Shown: piece after piece, positions 19,405-25,948 of the stretch
Numbering within the stretch: position 1 is the stretch's first letter
Layout of the letters: each line of letters begins with the position of its first letter
Source: Bacteroidales bacterium
GTDB lineage: Bacteria > Bacteroidota > Bacteroidia > Bacteroidales > JAADGE01
Assembly: GCA_029934515.1 (NCBI GenBank)
Contig: JAOZMB010000009.1
Coordinates: forward strand, 17,845-50,724
Reading direction: 5' to 3'
DNA: 32,880 bases
The notes under the pieces: generated by a model
What the model was told of the DNA's origin: nothing
What the model saw: only the letters and a program-made list of their open reading frames with translations
The model's database searches: none
Translations under genes and position numbers: made by a program

Positions 19405-20280
19405 ATGAACTATTGGATTATTAATAAAACCCAAACAAAACCAAGCTATTCACAGGAAAATAAATCTCTAAGCAAAAGTTCTTCTTTTTCTGTAAAAATA
19501 GAAACTTTGAGAGATAAATTATCTGTACGGCATGGCGATGGTTTTGTTTTTTTTGATATGAACGAAGCTAAATTTCAATCATATGGAAAAATTGATGCCG
19601 TAGCAAAAAACGGTCAAATACCTCACAGACATTCCGAAAAAGATTTAAAACCAAAAAATAGCTTCACCGTCTCTGGCGAAATAACAAACAAATTAACAAA
19701 AACAAATTCCATAACAGACCTATCTTACAGCCTTTTAAGAATAAATTCTTATATCAAACCTCAAAATCATTTTAAACATCAGCTAACAACGGTAAATAAA
19801 AACGATTACGAAACAATAGTAAAAGGACTAATATATATATCAAGAACAGCTTTTGGGAAAATTGTAAACTCTCTGCCACATCCTTATAAATTGGAATTCA
19901 AATTGTTGGCAATACAGGAATTTAAAAAAGACGAACTCATAAACGTAGAATATATTAAATTGCTTGATTTTTTGCACAAATATTTGGATAACAAAATATT
20001 ATCAAAAGGACGAATATTAATTGAAACAGATAAACTAATAAAAAAAAAACTATCAGATATTATCCCTGTTTCAGATATAGGTTTTTATGGAAAAAACAAA
20101 GAAGGAAAAATTGTATATGACAGTATTGATGAGCAGGCAAGAATTTTTAGAGAACTATTTGATATAGATGCTAACAACGAAATTATAAATGAAATAAAAA
20201 AAGCAATTAAAGAAAATAAAGAAATTGAAAATAGATTTAATAAATTATTCAAAAGGAAACCATTACCTCTTTATTTATGA
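19405..20280 (+). CDS. Hypothetical protein; possible EVE/PUA-like N-terminal domain
   Basis: A 291-residue protein I cannot name. The N-terminal MNYWIINKTQTKP, with later VRHGDGFVFFD and AKFQSYGKIDAVAKNG, follows the pattern of EVE/PUA-like modified-base-binding domains (MNYW start, GD turn, F-x-G-I-x strand), but the match is weak. Residues 115-220 are helical and basic, and the end (NEIINEIKKAIKENKEIENR) is a charged helix. No signal peptide or membrane segment is seen. The stop codon overlaps the next start by ATGA, so the two are co-expressed and may form a complex. The pair lies between glutamine synthetase and a large inverted repeat, an accessory-like place. Confidence 0.55.
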   Translation: MNYWIINKTQTKPSYSQENKSLSKSSSFSVKIETLRDKLSVRHGDGFVFFDMNEAKFQSYGKIDAVAKNGQIPHRHSEKDLKPKNSFTVSGEITNKLTKTNSITDLSYSLLRINSYIKPQNHFKHQLTTVNKNDYETIVKGLIYISRTAFGKIVNSLPHPYKLEFKLLAIQEFKKDELINVEYIKLLDFLHKYLDNKILSKGRILIETDKLIKKKLSDIIPVSDIGFYGKNKEGKIVYDSIDEQARIFRELFDIDANNEIINEIKKAIKENKEIENRFNKLFKRKPLPLYL

Positions 20281-20945
20281 TGATTGATATATTAGATAAA
20301 ATAAACAAATATTCTCATTATTTGAGCAAAGCAACAAGATGGCACAACAGCAAAGAATTAATCTCCGAAGTTGAAACAAGCAATACGCATGGACAAAAGC
20401 CAGATTTTATATATGAGTTTAAATGTTATATAAGAATAATTAACGATTTGAGAGTTAATAACAATGTTAAATTTGTTGTTGGAAGCGATACTGGAAATTA
20501 TTTCCCTAAAAAACCAGCAAAAAAAGCTGGAAAACCTTATTTCTTAATAGAAAATAATTTTAATGTATTTCAACTTTGTGCAGGAACAAAAATCGAAACA
20601 GCATACAAAACAAACAGAGCGCCAGATATTTCATTCCAATACGGAAACGCATCGGAAACACCTACGTATAAAGATATTTTTATGATTTACGATGCAAAAT
20701 TTACTAACTTAGGTAAAAAACTTAGTTATAATTCATTCTCTTATTTTGTTACGATGATAAAAGACCTCGGACTCGGAACAAAAAAAGAAAATAATGTTGT
20801 TTTTGATAAATTTTGTAATTTCGATACAAACTGTATAATGACAAATACAAAAGGAATTAATGAAAATAAAGAATATCACGAACTACACAATTTAAAAGTT
20901 GTTGAGTATTTTACTTTGGATAAAAAATTTAATGTAATAGGATAA
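20277..20945 (+). CDS. Hypothetical protein with PD-(D/E)XK-nuclease-like signature
   Basis: A 222-residue cytosolic protein, translationally coupled (ATGA overlap) to the gene before it. A second ATG follows at 20280. RAPDISFQYG (115-123) and then IFMIYDAKF (134-142) give Asp117 and Asp139-x-Lys141 spaced as in PD-(D/E)XK nucleases. An earlier helix with IYEFKCYIRIINDL (45-58) could give the extra Glu. This resembles the nuclease part of some restriction enzymes and McrC-like proteins, but no named family is recognised. With a possible base-recognising partner upstream it could be a small restriction-type defence pair; this is inference. Confidence 0.55.
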   Translation: MMIDILDKINKYSHYLSKATRWHNSKELISEVETSNTHGQKPDFIYEFKCYIRIINDLRVNNNVKFVVGSDTGNYFPKKPAKKAGKPYFLIENNFNVFQLCAGTKIETAYKTNRAPDISFQYGNASETPTYKDIFMIYDAKFTNLGKKLSYNSFSYFVTMIKDLGLGTKKENNVVFDKFCNFDTNCIMTNTKGINENKEYHELHNLKVVEYFTLDKKFNVIG

Positions 20946-21021: not shown

Positions 21022-21164
21022 TTATCTATTTTTCAAAATAGTAATTCCTTGATTTTCAGCACTTAAATATTTTGATGTGTGCCATATTATTAGTAACTTT
21101 TGTAAAACTGTAAGAAGCAAAAACTAATTTATACAGAATACTAATTTATTATTTAATGATTACT
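21022..21164 (+). repeat. Large inverted repeat, copy B, upstream of rlmD
   Basis: About 143 bp nearly identical (five mismatches and one indel, about 96%) to the reverse complement of 30320-30463. It contains the 30-bp core also found at 14587-14616. Inside it a TTTG (21071-21074) lies 19 bp before TAACTTTTG (21094-21102), close to the Bacteroidota TTTG-N19-TAnnTTTG promoter, so the repeat may carry the promoter for rlmD. The copy ends in the leader just before the preferred rlmD start. Confidence 0.9.
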
Positions 21165-21185
21165 AACAAAAAAATAAAATTTATA

Positions 21186-22634
21186 ATGGGAAGAAGAAAA
21201 AAAAAAAGATATCCAGCATACAAAAATGTTGAAATTATTGACCTTGCGATAGAAGGTAAAGCAGTAGCAAAAGTAAAAACAGAAATTTTTGTTGACGGAA
21301 AGAAAGAAACAAGCGAAATGACTATATTTGTAAATAAAGTTGTACCTGGCGATATTGTTGATGTTCAGATTAATAAAAAAAAAAGAAATTATAGAGAAGG
21401 ATATCCAGTGAATTTTCATAAATATTCAGAAAAAAGAATCGAACCTTTTTGTGAACATTTCGGAACTTGCGGAGGTTGTACACGACAAAGTATTAGCTAC
21501 GAAGACCAATTGTTTTATAAACAAAAACAAATTAAAGAAACACTTAAAAGAATTGGAAAAATTGATTTCGAAGAACTCGAAACAATATTGCCCGCACCAG
21601 AAACAACATTTTATAGAAATAAACTTGAATATACTTTCTCGGACAGTCGCTGGCTTACAGATGCAGATATTAATACAAATAATGAAATTAAAAATCGAAA
21701 CGCATTAGGTTTTCATATACCCGGACGATTTGATAAAGTGATTGATATAAAAAAATGTTGGCTACAAACAGAATCATCAAACAAAATAAGATTATGGATA
21801 AAAGATTTTGCAAATAAAAATAAATATGAGTTCTTTAATCTAAGAAAACAAACAGGACTGTTGAGAAATTTAATCATCAGAACAGCAACAACAGGAGATA
21901 TTATGGTTATCGTTTCGTTTTTTAAGAAAGATACAGAAAAAATATTAAAATTGCTCGAAAAATTATCAAAAGAATTTCCAGAGATAAGTTCTTTAATGTA
22001 TGTAATAAATCCTAAAAAAAATGATACTATAACAGACCTAAAAATAGAACTTTTTAAGGGTAAAGACCATATAATGGAAACAATGGAAGAGCTGAAATTT
22101 AAAGTCGGTGCTAAATCATTTTATCAGACAAATTCAAAACAAGCTTATAATTTGTACAAAATTGTTAGAGAATTTGCTGGACTCACTGGCAAAGAAATTG
22201 TTTATGATTTATATACCGGAACAGGAACTATTGCAAATTTCTTGGCAAGTAATGCAAAAAAAATTATTGGAATTGAATATGTATCAGAAGCAATAAATGA
22301 TGCAAAAATAAACTCAAAATTAAACAAAATAAATAATACAGAGTTCTATGCTGGAATGATGAAAGATATTCTTAACAAAAAATTTATAACAAAAACAGGA
22401 AAACCAGATGTAATTATTCTCGACCCGCCAAGAGCAGGAATGCATAAAAATGTTGTAAATATTATACTGGAAACAGAACCTGAAAAAATAGTATATGTAA
22501 GTTGTAATCCTGCGACACAGGCAAGAGATATACAACTAATGAATGAAAAATATGAACTTCTAAGAACAAAGCCAGTTGATATGTTTCCGCATACACATCA
22601 TACCGAGAATGTAGTTCTTTTACATAAAAAATAG
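21186..22634 (+). CDS. rlmD: 23S rRNA (uracil-C5)-methyltransferase RlmD-like
   Basis: A methyltransferase that uses S-adenosylmethionine to make m5U in 23S rRNA. The ATG at 21156 lies in the repeat; the ATG at 21186 gives MGRRKKKRYPAYKNVEIIDL, a basic N-terminus leading into the TRAM domain, and is preferred (482 residues). CEHFGTCGGC and a later KKCW supply the four Cys of the iron-sulfur cluster. DLYTGTGTIANF is the SAM-binding loop, LDPPRAGMH the motif IV site, and YVSCNPATQARD has the catalytic Cys. HHTENVVLL closes the fold. A RlmCD-type broad specificity is possible since one enzyme often serves two sites outside Enterobacteria. Confidence 0.9.
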   Translation: MGRRKKKRYPAYKNVEIIDLAIEGKAVAKVKTEIFVDGKKETSEMTIFVNKVVPGDIVDVQINKKKRNYREGYPVNFHKYSEKRIEPFCEHFGTCGGCTRQSISYEDQLFYKQKQIKETLKRIGKIDFEELETILPAPETTFYRNKLEYTFSDSRWLTDADINTNNEIKNRNALGFHIPGRFDKVIDIKKCWLQTESSNKIRLWIKDFANKNKYEFFNLRKQTGLLRNLIIRTATTGDIMVIVSFFKKDTEKILKLLEKLSKEFPEISSLMYVINPKKNDTITDLKIELFKGKDHIMETMEELKFKVGAKSFYQTNSKQAYNLYKIVREFAGLTGKEIVYDLYTGTGTIANFLASNAKKIIGIEYVSEAINDAKINSKLNKINNTEFYAGMMKDILNKKFITKTGKPDVIILDPPRAGMHKNVVNIILETEPEKIVYVSCNPATQARDIQLMNEKYELLRTKPVDMFPHTHHTENVVLLHKK

Positions 22635-22837: not shown

Positions 22838-23926
22838 ATGACAACAAAAACAATTTATGATTTTTTTACTTTGCTGAAGAAAGACTATTTAAGTTTTACA
22901 TATCGAGGAAGTTTTAACAATAGTGTACTTGCAATGGCAACTGATTTGATAAAAAATAGCATGGACGAAGAGCATTCTAGACTGAGAAATAAACTTTCTT
23001 TTTTGATGATAGAAAGTTTTCAGAATATTGCGCGATACGCAGATAGTAAATCGAAAATTATTGAGCCATCTCCAAATTCTGATTTTTTTATGACAAGGAA
23101 TATAGGCTCGACATTTTATATTATATCTGCAAATCTAATTGATAATGATAAAATTGATGTTGTAAGAAGCAAACTTGAAAAAGTTAATACATTAGGAAAA
23201 AGAGAACTAAATAAATTTTATAGAGAAATCCTCACAAACAGAAAAATGACAAAAAAAGGCGGTGCAGGATTAGGATTTATTGAAATGGTAAGAAAAACGA
23301 GAGGTAAATTGCCTTTTGATTTTGTGAAAATTGATGACAAGAAGTCAATGTTTTTTATGCAAATTCAACTCACAAACCCAAATTATGAATCAATAGAAGA
23401 AAAAGTCCCTTTGGATGAGGCAAAAAAAATTCAAAAACTTGTCGGTAAAGAAAGTATCCTGATGATGCACAAAGGAAGTTTTTCGCAAGATGCAGTAGGA
23501 CCAGTACTTAAAATGGTAGAAGATAACATGTACAGCATGAAACTAAGAATACAAAAAAAAGTTTATCATTTTATTGTTGAAATACTTCAAAATATAAGTA
23601 AACATTCATATCCAATAGACGGCGATAGGGAAGGTATTTTTTTAATCGGTGTGAAAGGAGGACGATTTAATATTGGAACAGGAAATTATATAGAAAACAA
23701 AAAAATAGAAAACTTAAAAATGCAATTAGAACAAGTAAACTCTCTCTCACGCGAAGAACTTAATGTGCTTTATAGGAAATATTTACGTGAAGGTAGAGAT
23801 ACTGAAACAAATAGCGCAGGGCTTGGATTGATTGACCTTGCAAGAGAGACTGACAAAAAAATAAGTTATTGTTTTAATCAAATTGATGATAAATATTCAT
23901 TTTTTTCTTTAACTATTAAATTTTAA
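22838..23926 (+). CDS. Double-domain SiaB-family protein kinase (DUF6272 tandem fusion)
   Basis: A 362-residue protein made of two SiaB-like (DUF6272) GHKL ATPase domains, about residues 8-180 and 198-362. Each has an N-box (ESFQN at 59-63; EILQN at 248-252) and a G-box (GGAGLG at 141-146; SAGLG at 326-330), and the same internal pattern LExVNxLxxxELNxxYRxxL. Known SiaB proteins have one such domain (about 180 residues) and phosphorylate the SiaC partner in a partner-switch with the SiaA phosphatase and the SiaD cyclase. Here both ATP sites look intact. Three SiaC-like genes follow, the first only 2 bp after the stop. The cognate phosphatase is not in the window. Confidence 0.8.
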   Translation: MTTKTIYDFFTLLKKDYLSFTYRGSFNNSVLAMATDLIKNSMDEEHSRLRNKLSFLMIESFQNIARYADSKSKIIEPSPNSDFFMTRNIGSTFYIISANLIDNDKIDVVRSKLEKVNTLGKRELNKFYREILTNRKMTKKGGAGLGFIEMVRKTRGKLPFDFVKIDDKKSMFFMQIQLTNPNYESIEEKVPLDEAKKIQKLVGKESILMMHKGSFSQDAVGPVLKMVEDNMYSMKLRIQKKVYHFIVEILQNISKHSYPIDGDREGIFLIGVKGGRFNIGTGNYIENKKIENLKMQLEQVNSLSREELNVLYRKYLREGRDTETNSAGLGLIDLARETDKKISYCFNQIDDKYSFFSLTIKF

Positions 23927-23928
23927 TC

Positions 23929-24327
23929 ATGTTAGAACCATTATTTATATCAAAAACAAGAAACAATCCTGAAGTTAATCTGGACAAACAGAAAAACTAT
24001 TTCAGGATATCAGGACGTTCTATTCTCGAAGACCCAAATAAATTTTATATGATGATTTATGAATGGTTAGACGAATATATTAAAAATCCAAATCCTGAAA
24101 CTGAATTCTATTTTGATCTAGAATATTTCAATTCATCATCTGCAAGACAAATTATGAAATTAATAATCTTGTTAGAAAATATTCAAAAAACAAAAAATAG
24201 AATAACTATAATATGGCTGTACGAAGAAGGAGATGAAATGTCCGAAGAAAGAGGTGAAGAAATAAAAATTATATCAAAATTAAATTTCGAACTACGTGAA
24301 TATCCATCAGATGATATTGATTTCTAA
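23929..24327 (+). CDS. SiaC-family regulatory phosphoprotein (DUF1987), copy 1
   Basis: A 132-residue DUF1987/SiaC-like protein, the usual length. LEYFNSSSARQIMKL (around 64-78) holds the acceptor motif: N68-S69-S70-S71, matching the Asn-Thr/Ser-Ser-Ser stretch that carries Thr68 in Pseudomonas SiaC. FRISGRSILEDPNKFY (25-40) and YEEGDEMSEERGEEI are the other family signatures. It starts 2 bp after the double SiaB gene, so the pair is clearly one operon. SiaC acts as an anti-/co-regulator whose phosphorylation by SiaB sets downstream signalling, cyclic-di-GMP in Pseudomonas; the target here is unknown. Confidence 0.82.
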   Translation: MLEPLFISKTRNNPEVNLDKQKNYFRISGRSILEDPNKFYMMIYEWLDEYIKNPNPETEFYFDLEYFNSSSARQIMKLIILLENIQKTKNRITIIWLYEEGDEMSEERGEEIKIISKLNFELREYPSDDIDF

Positions 24328-24364
24328 AAATTAAATATGTAAACAAAATTGATTATGTAAAATT

Positions 24365-24991
24365 ATGAAATCAGAGACGGTTATAAAGCAAAATATACCT
24401 GAAATTGAAATTTCAAAAGAATATCAAGAGTTTCTTGATGAAACATCTGAACGCACAAAGTACGAATGGATAGACGGTAAGTTGGTGTTACACTCGCCTG
24501 TTACTGACCTTCATGGTTCTATAAATTTAAAACTGACATTGATGTTAAATTCTTATGTAATAAGAAATAATCTTGGACATCTTGTCTCTGGAAATGCTTT
24601 AATAAATTTTGAATTTGCTGTTAATAATTTTAAATCTGATGCTGTATTTTTTTTACCAAAGAAAGCTAAATTTATAAATAATACTACATCTTTGTATAAT
24701 GTAATTCCAGATTTTATAGTTAAGATAGCTTCGAAAGGTACTCGCAATTACGACCGCAATATAAAATACAAGGTATATCAACAACATGGTGTTAGCGAAT
24801 ACTGGATAATCGAACCTTTTAAAAAAACAGTAGAACAATTTATTCTACACAATGGCAAATACAAAAGTCCAATTTTTTATAAAATCGAAGATACAATAAA
24901 GAGTCATATTGTAAAAGGTTTCAAAATAAAAATTAAAGCATTGTATGAGGATATATTTTATCTTGCAGAACTTGATAAACATGCTCGATAG
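24365..24991 (+). CDS. Uma2-family (DUF820) PD-(D/E)XK-like protein, possibly inactive
   Basis: A 208-residue DUF820/Uma2 protein: YEWIDGKLVLHSPVTDLHG (33-51), SDAVFF (91-96), then PDFIVKIASKGT (115-126) and YKVYQQHGVSEYWIIEP (135-151). The nuclease core normally reads PDLVVEI with the catalytic Glu; here this residue is Lys120. The Asp92 and later Lys residues are kept. The protein may thus be a non-cutting member. It sits 37 bp after SiaC copy 1 and before two more SiaC genes, so it interrupts the Sia cluster and may have been inserted there. Uma2 proteins are very common in cyanobacteria and occur widely; physiological role unknown. Confidence 0.78.
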   Translation: MKSETVIKQNIPEIEISKEYQEFLDETSERTKYEWIDGKLVLHSPVTDLHGSINLKLTLMLNSYVIRNNLGHLVSGNALINFEFAVNNFKSDAVFFLPKKAKFINNTTSLYNVIPDFIVKIASKGTRNYDRNIKYKVYQQHGVSEYWIIEPFKKTVEQFILHNGKYKSPIFYKIEDTIKSHIVKGFKIKIKALYEDIFYLAELDKHAR

Positions 24992-25027
24992 TATAAAAAA
25001 CTTTTAATCAAACGTAACAATCAGATT

Positions 25028-25129
25028 ATGCGTCTTTATTTTATAAATAAAAAACCGATTGGAGAGATTATTGTACGAACAAATAAAAGCAGAGAATACA
25101 TAAAAAAATACTTGGGTTGGATTGATTAA
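25028..25129 (+). CDS. Small ORF (33 residues), possible gene remnant
   Basis: ATG 25028 opens 33 codons encoding MRLYFINKKPIGEIIVRTN and KSREYIKKYLGWID. The KSREYIKKYL part looks like a recognition helix of a helix-turn-helix protein, but the chain is too short for a domain. It may be a remnant of a longer gene or a real small protein. It lies between the Uma2-like gene and SiaC copy 2. Confidence 0.3.
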   Translation: MRLYFINKKPIGEIIVRTNKSREYIKKYLGWID

Positions 25130-25178
25130 GACCTAAATAATTAAAAATATTTTACAAATATTTTGTTTTTTTATTATT

Positions 25179-25568
25179 ATGACAACAAAATTAATACTCG
25201 AACAAACAGAAGATACGCCCGGAGTTATATTTGACCCAGAGAATGATAGATTTGAAATCTTCGGGAAATCGTTGCCTGAAAATGCAACTGAATTTTACGG
25301 AAAACTGATTGATTATCTCGAAATGTATGCTTTAGAACCTAATAAGAAAACAAAACTAGTACTTAATTTTAAATATTATAATTCCTCAACTATCCGTAAA
25401 ATTTTAAATATACTGTCAATATTAGAAGAAATGCACCTTGACGGAGATGAAGTATCAGCAGTATGGATGTACGAAGAAACAGACGAACTAACAAAAGAAA
25501 ACGGCGAAGATTTTAAAGATAACTTAAATATTCCATTTGAAATTAAATCATTTAAACTTGACTATTAA
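25179..25568 (+). CDS. SiaC-family regulatory phosphoprotein (DUF1987), copy 2
   Basis: A 129-residue SiaC-like protein. The acceptor region is FKYYNSSTIRKIL (65-77), with N68-S69-S70-T71. It keeps the family pattern TPGVIFDPENDRFEIFGKSL (13-32) and YEETDELTKENGEDF. Together with copy 3 it shares the N-terminal TPGV/LPGV opening that copy 1 lacks, so copies 2 and 3 look like a more recent duplication. The stop overlaps copy 3 by one base. It could be a substrate of the second SiaB domain upstream, by inference. Confidence 0.8.
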   Translation: MTTKLILEQTEDTPGVIFDPENDRFEIFGKSLPENATEFYGKLIDYLEMYALEPNKKTKLVLNFKYYNSSTIRKILNILSILEEMHLDGDEVSAVWMYEETDELTKENGEDFKDNLNIPFEIKSFKLDY

Positions 25569-25948
25569 TGATGTTTGAAAAATTATATATAAAACAGACT
25601 GACGATTTGCCAGGTGTTATACTTGATGCAAAAAATAATATATTCAATATATTCGGAAGAGTACTACCCGAAGACGGAAATAAATTTTTTAAACCAATTA
25701 TTAGTTGGGTCTCGGAATATGTTAAAAACCCTAATCCTGAAACAGAATTTTGTCTTAGACTGGATTATTATAATTCCTCAACAGCAAGGATGTTAATAAA
25801 AACAATAGTCGAACTTGAAAAAATCCAAGAAACAAGCAATAAAGTTAAAATTATATGGGAATACGGCGAAGATGACGAAGTCATGGAAGAAAGAGGCGAA
25901 GAACTAAAAAGCATATCGTACCTTCCTTTTGAATTAAGAGCATTTTAA
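25568..25948 (+). CDS. SiaC-family regulatory phosphoprotein (DUF1987), copy 3
   Basis: A 126-residue SiaC-like protein. Its acceptor motif is LDYYNSSTARMLI (65-77), N69-S70-S71-T72, and its tail is YGEDDEVMEERGEELKSISY. The 56-60 region NPNPETE matches copy 1 (NPNPETEF), while the LPGVILDAKNN opening matches copy 2, so it is intermediate between the two. Its start codon shares one base with the stop of copy 2, or begins 3 bp later at the second ATG. It ends the + strand Sia cluster; rfbB converges from the other side. Confidence 0.8.
   Translation: MMFEKLYIKQTDDLPGVILDAKNNIFNIFGRVLPEDGNKFFKPIISWVSEYVKNPNPETEFCLRLDYYNSSTARMLIKTIVELEKIQETSNKVKIIWEYGEDDEVMEERGEELKSISYLPFELRAF

Follow-up and report, generated by a model that had tools for sequence, protein, structure and literature searches.

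A conserved tandem SiaB-family kinase with an array of SiaC genes in a family of Bacteroidales

What a Sia-type partner-switch regulates when neither its phosphatase nor its cyclase is encoded next to it is the question raised by a kinase and SiaC cassette (Table 1) in a 32,880-nucleotide stretch of a Bacteroidales genome, referred to below as the window. The genome is a draft of 3.34 Mb in 201 contigs and is about 98% complete. The original prediction, made from the sequence of the window, had seen a fusion of two intact SiaB domains with two ATP sites, three SiaC genes with different acceptors and no SiaA or SiaD, possibly allowing branched or graded signalling to another output than the known one.

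Table 1: Features of the cassette and its upstream neighbour (positions within the window).
Feature	Position	Strand	Description
rlmD	21156–22634	+	23S rRNA uracil methyltransferase, TIGR00479 9.7e-100; upstream neighbour of the cassette
SiaB-SiaB tandem kinase	22838–23926	+	362 aa, PF19788 matched twice
SiaB domain 1 (residues 1–185)	22838–23392	+	PF19788 1.1e-30; N-box IESFQN, G1 ISAN, lid KGGAGLG
SiaB domain 2 (residues 186–362)	23393–23926	+	PF19788 2.1e-34; N-box VEILQN, G1 GTGN, lid TNSAGLG
SiaC1	23929–24327	+	PF09345 8.9e-34, 116 bits; YFNSSSAR
Uma2-family gene	24365–24991	+	Putative endonuclease, PF05685 4e-26; between SiaC1 and SiaC2
SiaC2	25179–25568	+	PF09345 6.3e-34, 117 bits; YYNSSTIR
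SiaC3	25568–25948	+	PF09345 1.9e-31, 109 bits; YYNSSTAR

Composition of the cassette

The whole tandem protein matches the Pfam family PF19788 in two stretches (E 1.3e-64) and the NCBIfam model NF038262 ('SiaB family protein kinase') with 2.9e-73. Each half also passes on its own, with 106 (domain 1) and 118 bits (domain 2) for PF19788 (cut-off 26.6) and 123 and 133 bits for NF038262 (curated cut-off 85), so that the predicted fusion of two SiaB-family domains holds, including its coordinates. The two domains share 30% identity. With the equivalog model NF038264, which represents SiaB of Pseudomonas aeruginosa, the whole protein reaches 103.6 bits and stays below the threshold of 225; judged by sequence, it is a member of the SiaB family and not a SiaB equivalog. 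Domain 2 matches the sequence of SiaB in 6KKO at 2.5e-9 and SiaC2 that of P. aeruginosa SiaC in 6K4F at 1.2e-19 (phmmer), and the SiaB and SiaC family matches are not chance.

An AlphaFold2 model of the tandem protein (five sequences; mean pLDDT 78, pTM 0.75) was used for a Foldseek search, in which both SiaB chains of 6KKO were the sole matches below 0.001. Using VIA-align, domain 2 (model residues 189–362) was superimposed on chain A of 6KKO over 164 residues with Z 18.9 and an rmsd of 2.3 Å, and the comparison of the model with SpoIIAB/RsbW-type kinases gave Z 10–12. Domain 1 (model residues 16–182) reached Z 11.2 with SpoIIAB (1TIL), which places it in the same fold class, its assignment to SiaB being by sequence.

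All three SiaC proteins exceed the PF09345 cut-off of 24.5 bits, in agreement with the three SiaC genes expected after the kinase, except that a Uma2-family gene intervenes. SiaC1 starts after a gap of two bases behind the kinase and the start of SiaC3 overlaps the stop of SiaC2 by one base, both of which fit co-transcription. In the clusters of related genomes no gene of at least 100 aa lies between the SiaC genes, and the Uma2 gene was not seen there. This gene matches the PADLOC candidate-defence models PDC-S03. A defence system was considered for the cassette and rejected, as this inserted gene alone matches such models and PADLOC recognised neither the SiaB nor the SiaC proteins.

The phosphorylation of P. 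aeruginosa SiaC at Thr68, within the sequence LLYLNTSSIK, has been published (PMC7647112). In an alignment to this protein Thr68 (NTSS) corresponds to the first residue after the conserved Asn, and all three SiaC proteins of the window have Ser there. The three different acceptors proposed before (NSSS, NSST, NSST) therefore have to be given up, because the variation is found two residues off the acceptor. Every SiaC in the window-type clusters of the same family carries Ser at this position and nearly all other SiaC proteins of the window genome carry Thr (NTSS, NTAS, NTST); thus Ser marks the entire cassette, in contrast to the Thr of the remaining SiaCs of the genome. A lone SiaC on another contig (C8, locus L060, 6404–6799) has LSSAS in the acceptor region and lacks the conserved Asn.

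The ATP-site motifs of the kinase were compared in a motif table with the patterns E..QN for the N-box, TGN or AGN for G1 and GxGLG for the lid. Glu and Gln-Asn of the N-box as well as the GLG of the lid are retained in both domains. The G1 motif of domain 1 (ISAN) has Ala in place of Gly compared to TTGN, next to a complete lid (GGAGLG), and in a family alignment ISAN or VSAN is fixed in this domain across all same-family orthologues. Domain 2 shows GTGN in G1 and a weakened ATP lid (SAGLG), in which the first Gly pair of KGGAGLG is replaced, and nearly all domain 2 sequences have lost the lid's leading Gly. SiaB of P. aeruginosa also has a non-classical G1 (SAGN). Of the 'two intact domains' the family match thus stands for both, but their ATP-site motifs are only partly intact, and the presence of two ATP sites appears doubtful; the change in G1 of domain 1 or in the lid of domain 2 could have left one site inactive.

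Conservation, origin and genomic setting

Counterparts of the tandem kinase with 64–72% identity were found in 19 of 20 genomes of the same family, the exception being a genome that is 70% complete. Of the 20 same-family loci, 15 have rlmD immediately upstream, and most of the others end at a contig edge. The typical order is rlmD, the tandem kinase and two to five SiaC genes: among the 18 same-family clusters with sequence downstream of the kinase, the window included, five have two SiaC genes, nine have three, three have four and one has five. Each of the three window SiaCs clusters with its positional counterpart from other genera, with clade supports of 96/92 for SiaC1, 99/96 for SiaC2 (a small set) and 100/99 for SiaC3 (a clade of seven). 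SiaC1 orthologues adjoin the kinase in the same-family clusters, and one genus (g4) has retained SiaC1 and possesses further copies of its own. For close pairs, dN/dS was 0.02–0.05 for each kinase domain and 0–0.18 for the SiaC genes (Biopython estimates, some with large dS), and the cassette is under purifying selection.

Outside the family, full-length tandem matches occur in 11 of 39 other sampled families of the order, and a draw of 296 genomes from the phylum contained a tandem SiaB (E ≤ 1e-32) in only one genome besides that of the window. The tandem form is the rule within the family, of scattered occurrence across the order and rare in the phylum. The case against the original prediction, a form that is standard in the phylum and has known outputs, thus applies by half: the arrangement is general in the family, and tandem SiaBs recur in several further families of the order, but they are not general in the phylum and have no known output. 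Tandem SiaBs elsewhere accompany one SiaC or a single fused SiaC, and at three loci from a few other families (L127, L132, L155) no SiaC follows directly.

To the evolutionary origin of the fusion a phylogenetic tree of 94 SiaB domains gives an answer. The first domains form one clade (99/98, found in 99% of bootstrap trees) and the second domains another one (94/58, 93%), with long branches that make the outer order uncertain. One old fusion explains the tandem SiaBs found in part of the order, covering the window type, the type found on contig C42 and those fused to SiaC.

The genome of the window encodes 12 SiaC matches and 10 SiaB domains in seven proteins, three of which are tandem: the kinase of the window, one on contig C42 with a single SiaC behind it, and a 509-aa SiaB-SiaB-SiaC fusion within 11299–13810 of contig C105 (locus L059). 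SpoIIE (PF07228) is present with 29 matches in more than 20 proteins, none of them on the contig of the window (C141), which leaves the cassette without an operon SiaA. No SiaD was found near the cassette and GGDEF (PF00990) had no match genome-wide, an absence that is strong but not absolute in a draft about 98% complete. A SiaD-type output thus appears unavailable and phosphatases would act from elsewhere. In addition we found two STAS matches and no HATPase_c_2 match above the cut-off in this genome; with more than 20 SpoIIE proteins facing 12 SiaC and two STAS matches, SiaC could be the principal family of substrates for these phosphatases.

The original prediction of a system lacking SiaA and SiaD is hence correct locally, and the lack of GGDEF matches extends the missing SiaD to the genome and supports an output other than the known one. 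It does not extend to phosphatases, since besides the numerous SpoIIE proteins the genome has a complete SiaA-SiaB-SiaC operon within 3460–10631 of contig C137 (locus L055), with a SpoIIE/PAS protein as SiaA. This operon was read in the window genome and 14 relatives (loci L159–L172), and in all 15 a large protein of about 790–1090 aa follows it; two of these proteins were scanned and contain TerB, ABC ATPase and ABC-2 membrane regions. Lipoprotein-like and secreted-looking proteins often come next, and two proteins related to the secreted-looking protein of ~150 aa from the end of this neighbourhood are encoded directly upstream of the SiaB-SiaB-SiaC fusion on contig C105. This arrangement suggests, by neighbourhood and with no direct involvement of the window cassette, that SiaC outputs in the order include a transporter, and the TerB-ABC-ABC2 membrane transporter is the only neighbour-based lead for them. 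For the window cassette itself a neighbour-based output was sought and rejected, as only rlmD upstream is kept across the family and the downstream genes vary by lineage; no phosphatase or output was linked to a window-type cassette in the loci read. Two adjoining genes upstream of rlmD (19405–20945) had no PADLOC match and no Pfam match above the cut-off either, the first reaching 0.23 at best and the second giving no match at all.

Proposed mechanism and competing explanations

On balance we favour a conserved Sia-type partner-switch, in which a tandem pseudo-dimer kinase acts on an array of SiaCs, phosphatases work in trans and the output is probably not a cyclase. As P. aeruginosa SiaB has been reported to form dimers (PMC7278518), the tandem protein may be regarded as a covalent and asymmetric pseudo-dimer whose two sites would no longer be equivalent. 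By analogy to the family it would phosphorylate the Ser of each SiaC and thereby keep the SiaCs off their targets, until a SpoIIE/PP2C phosphatase from elsewhere in the genome, or several of them, is stimulated, removes the phosphate and sets SiaC free for its output protein. A diguanylate cyclase is an improbable candidate for this output. The SiaB-SiaB-SiaC fusion physically ties a tandem SiaB to SiaC, and the maintenance of SiaC1, SiaC2 and SiaC3 as separate orthologous lines fits distinct roles; probably the three either have targets that are related without being identical, or work in mixed complexes. More tentatively, the pseudo-dimer could be obligate and drive non-equivalent SiaCs within a network of 12 SiaC and more than 20 SpoIIE proteins without c-di-GMP output, in which SiaC would have been rewired to targets such as ABC-2 transporters.

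How the two halves share the work is where the explanations differ. One of them could be a pseudokinase, either domain 1 by its Gly to Ala change in G1 or domain 2 by its lid, and serve as a regulatory half that binds SiaC or nucleotide while the other half catalyses. Kinase/pseudokinase pairs are known among other kinase classes, and both the fixed ISAN/VSAN of domain 1 and the loss of the leading lid Gly from nearly all second domains point in this direction. On the other hand, both domains conserve Glu and Asn of the N-box together with the GLG core of the lid, the G1 change is small and the SAGN of P. aeruginosa SiaB itself departs from the classical motif, so that we give a pseudokinase half a little less than an even chance. 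This idea does not conflict with the pseudo-dimer, of which it would be the sharper version. That both domains are active kinases, each with its own preferred SiaC as a branch point for graded or multiple outputs, would agree with the separation of the two domains since one old fusion, with the three separate SiaC lines and with the purifying selection on all components. We nevertheless consider it unlikely, as each domain has one departure from the usual ATP motifs, the SiaC number varies from two to five behind an unchanged kinase, which speaks against a one-to-one match, and tandem SiaBs elsewhere do with one SiaC or a single fused one. A redundant or decaying SiaBC duplication without a role of its own might be read from the missing link to a phosphatase or output and from the Uma2 gene inserted in the window genome, but the occurrence of the cassette in 19 of 20 genomes of the family, for the most part at one and the same site, the low dN/dS and the acceptor Ser in every cluster SiaC already disfavour it and make it highly improbable.

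The favoured partner-switch can be placed among known systems. With SiaABCD of P. aeruginosa (PMC7647112, PMC8457831, PMC7278518) it shares a SiaB-family GHKL kinase neighbouring SiaC, the SiaB fold (6KKO) and a Ser/Thr at the Thr68 position after the conserved Asn, but it is set apart by the pair of SiaB domains on a single polypeptide, by a set of three SiaCs that carry Ser in place of Thr, and by the absence of SiaA nearby and of any GGDEF/SiaD match genome-wide. The partner-switching modules SpoIIAB/SpoIIAA and RsbW/RsbV likewise pair a GHKL Ser kinase with a small STAS-like antagonist and resemble it in fold (Z 10–12), whereas the window proteins belong to PF19788 and PF09345 and not to HATPase_c_2 and STAS, the kinase is tandem and no sigma factor is linked. 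The SiaA-SiaB-SiaC operons on contig C137 of the same genome and in 14 relatives use the same SiaB and SiaC families with the kinase before SiaC, but have a single SiaB, one SiaC with a Thr acceptor (NTAS), SpoIIE in the operon and the ABC-2 transporter downstream. The SiaB-SiaB-SiaC fusion on contig C105 and its same-family relatives contain a homologous tandem SiaB that goes back to the one old fusion event; here SiaC forms the C-terminus and G1 of domain 1 is intact (TTGN).

In summary, the cassette is a real and conserved variant of the Sia partner-switch that is more ordinary within its family than first thought. The papers found do not describe the tandem SiaB and SiaC array architecture, and a search on DUF1987 or DUF6272 in Bacteroidota returned nothing beyond the P. 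aeruginosa papers. In the literature found, SiaC-type switches have been studied only as regulators of a diguanylate cyclase in P. aeruginosa. A conserved cassette in a genome that yielded no cyclase match indicates other outputs for the SiaB/SiaC module, and the tandem kinase is a natural fixed pair for asking which role each half of a SiaB dimer plays.
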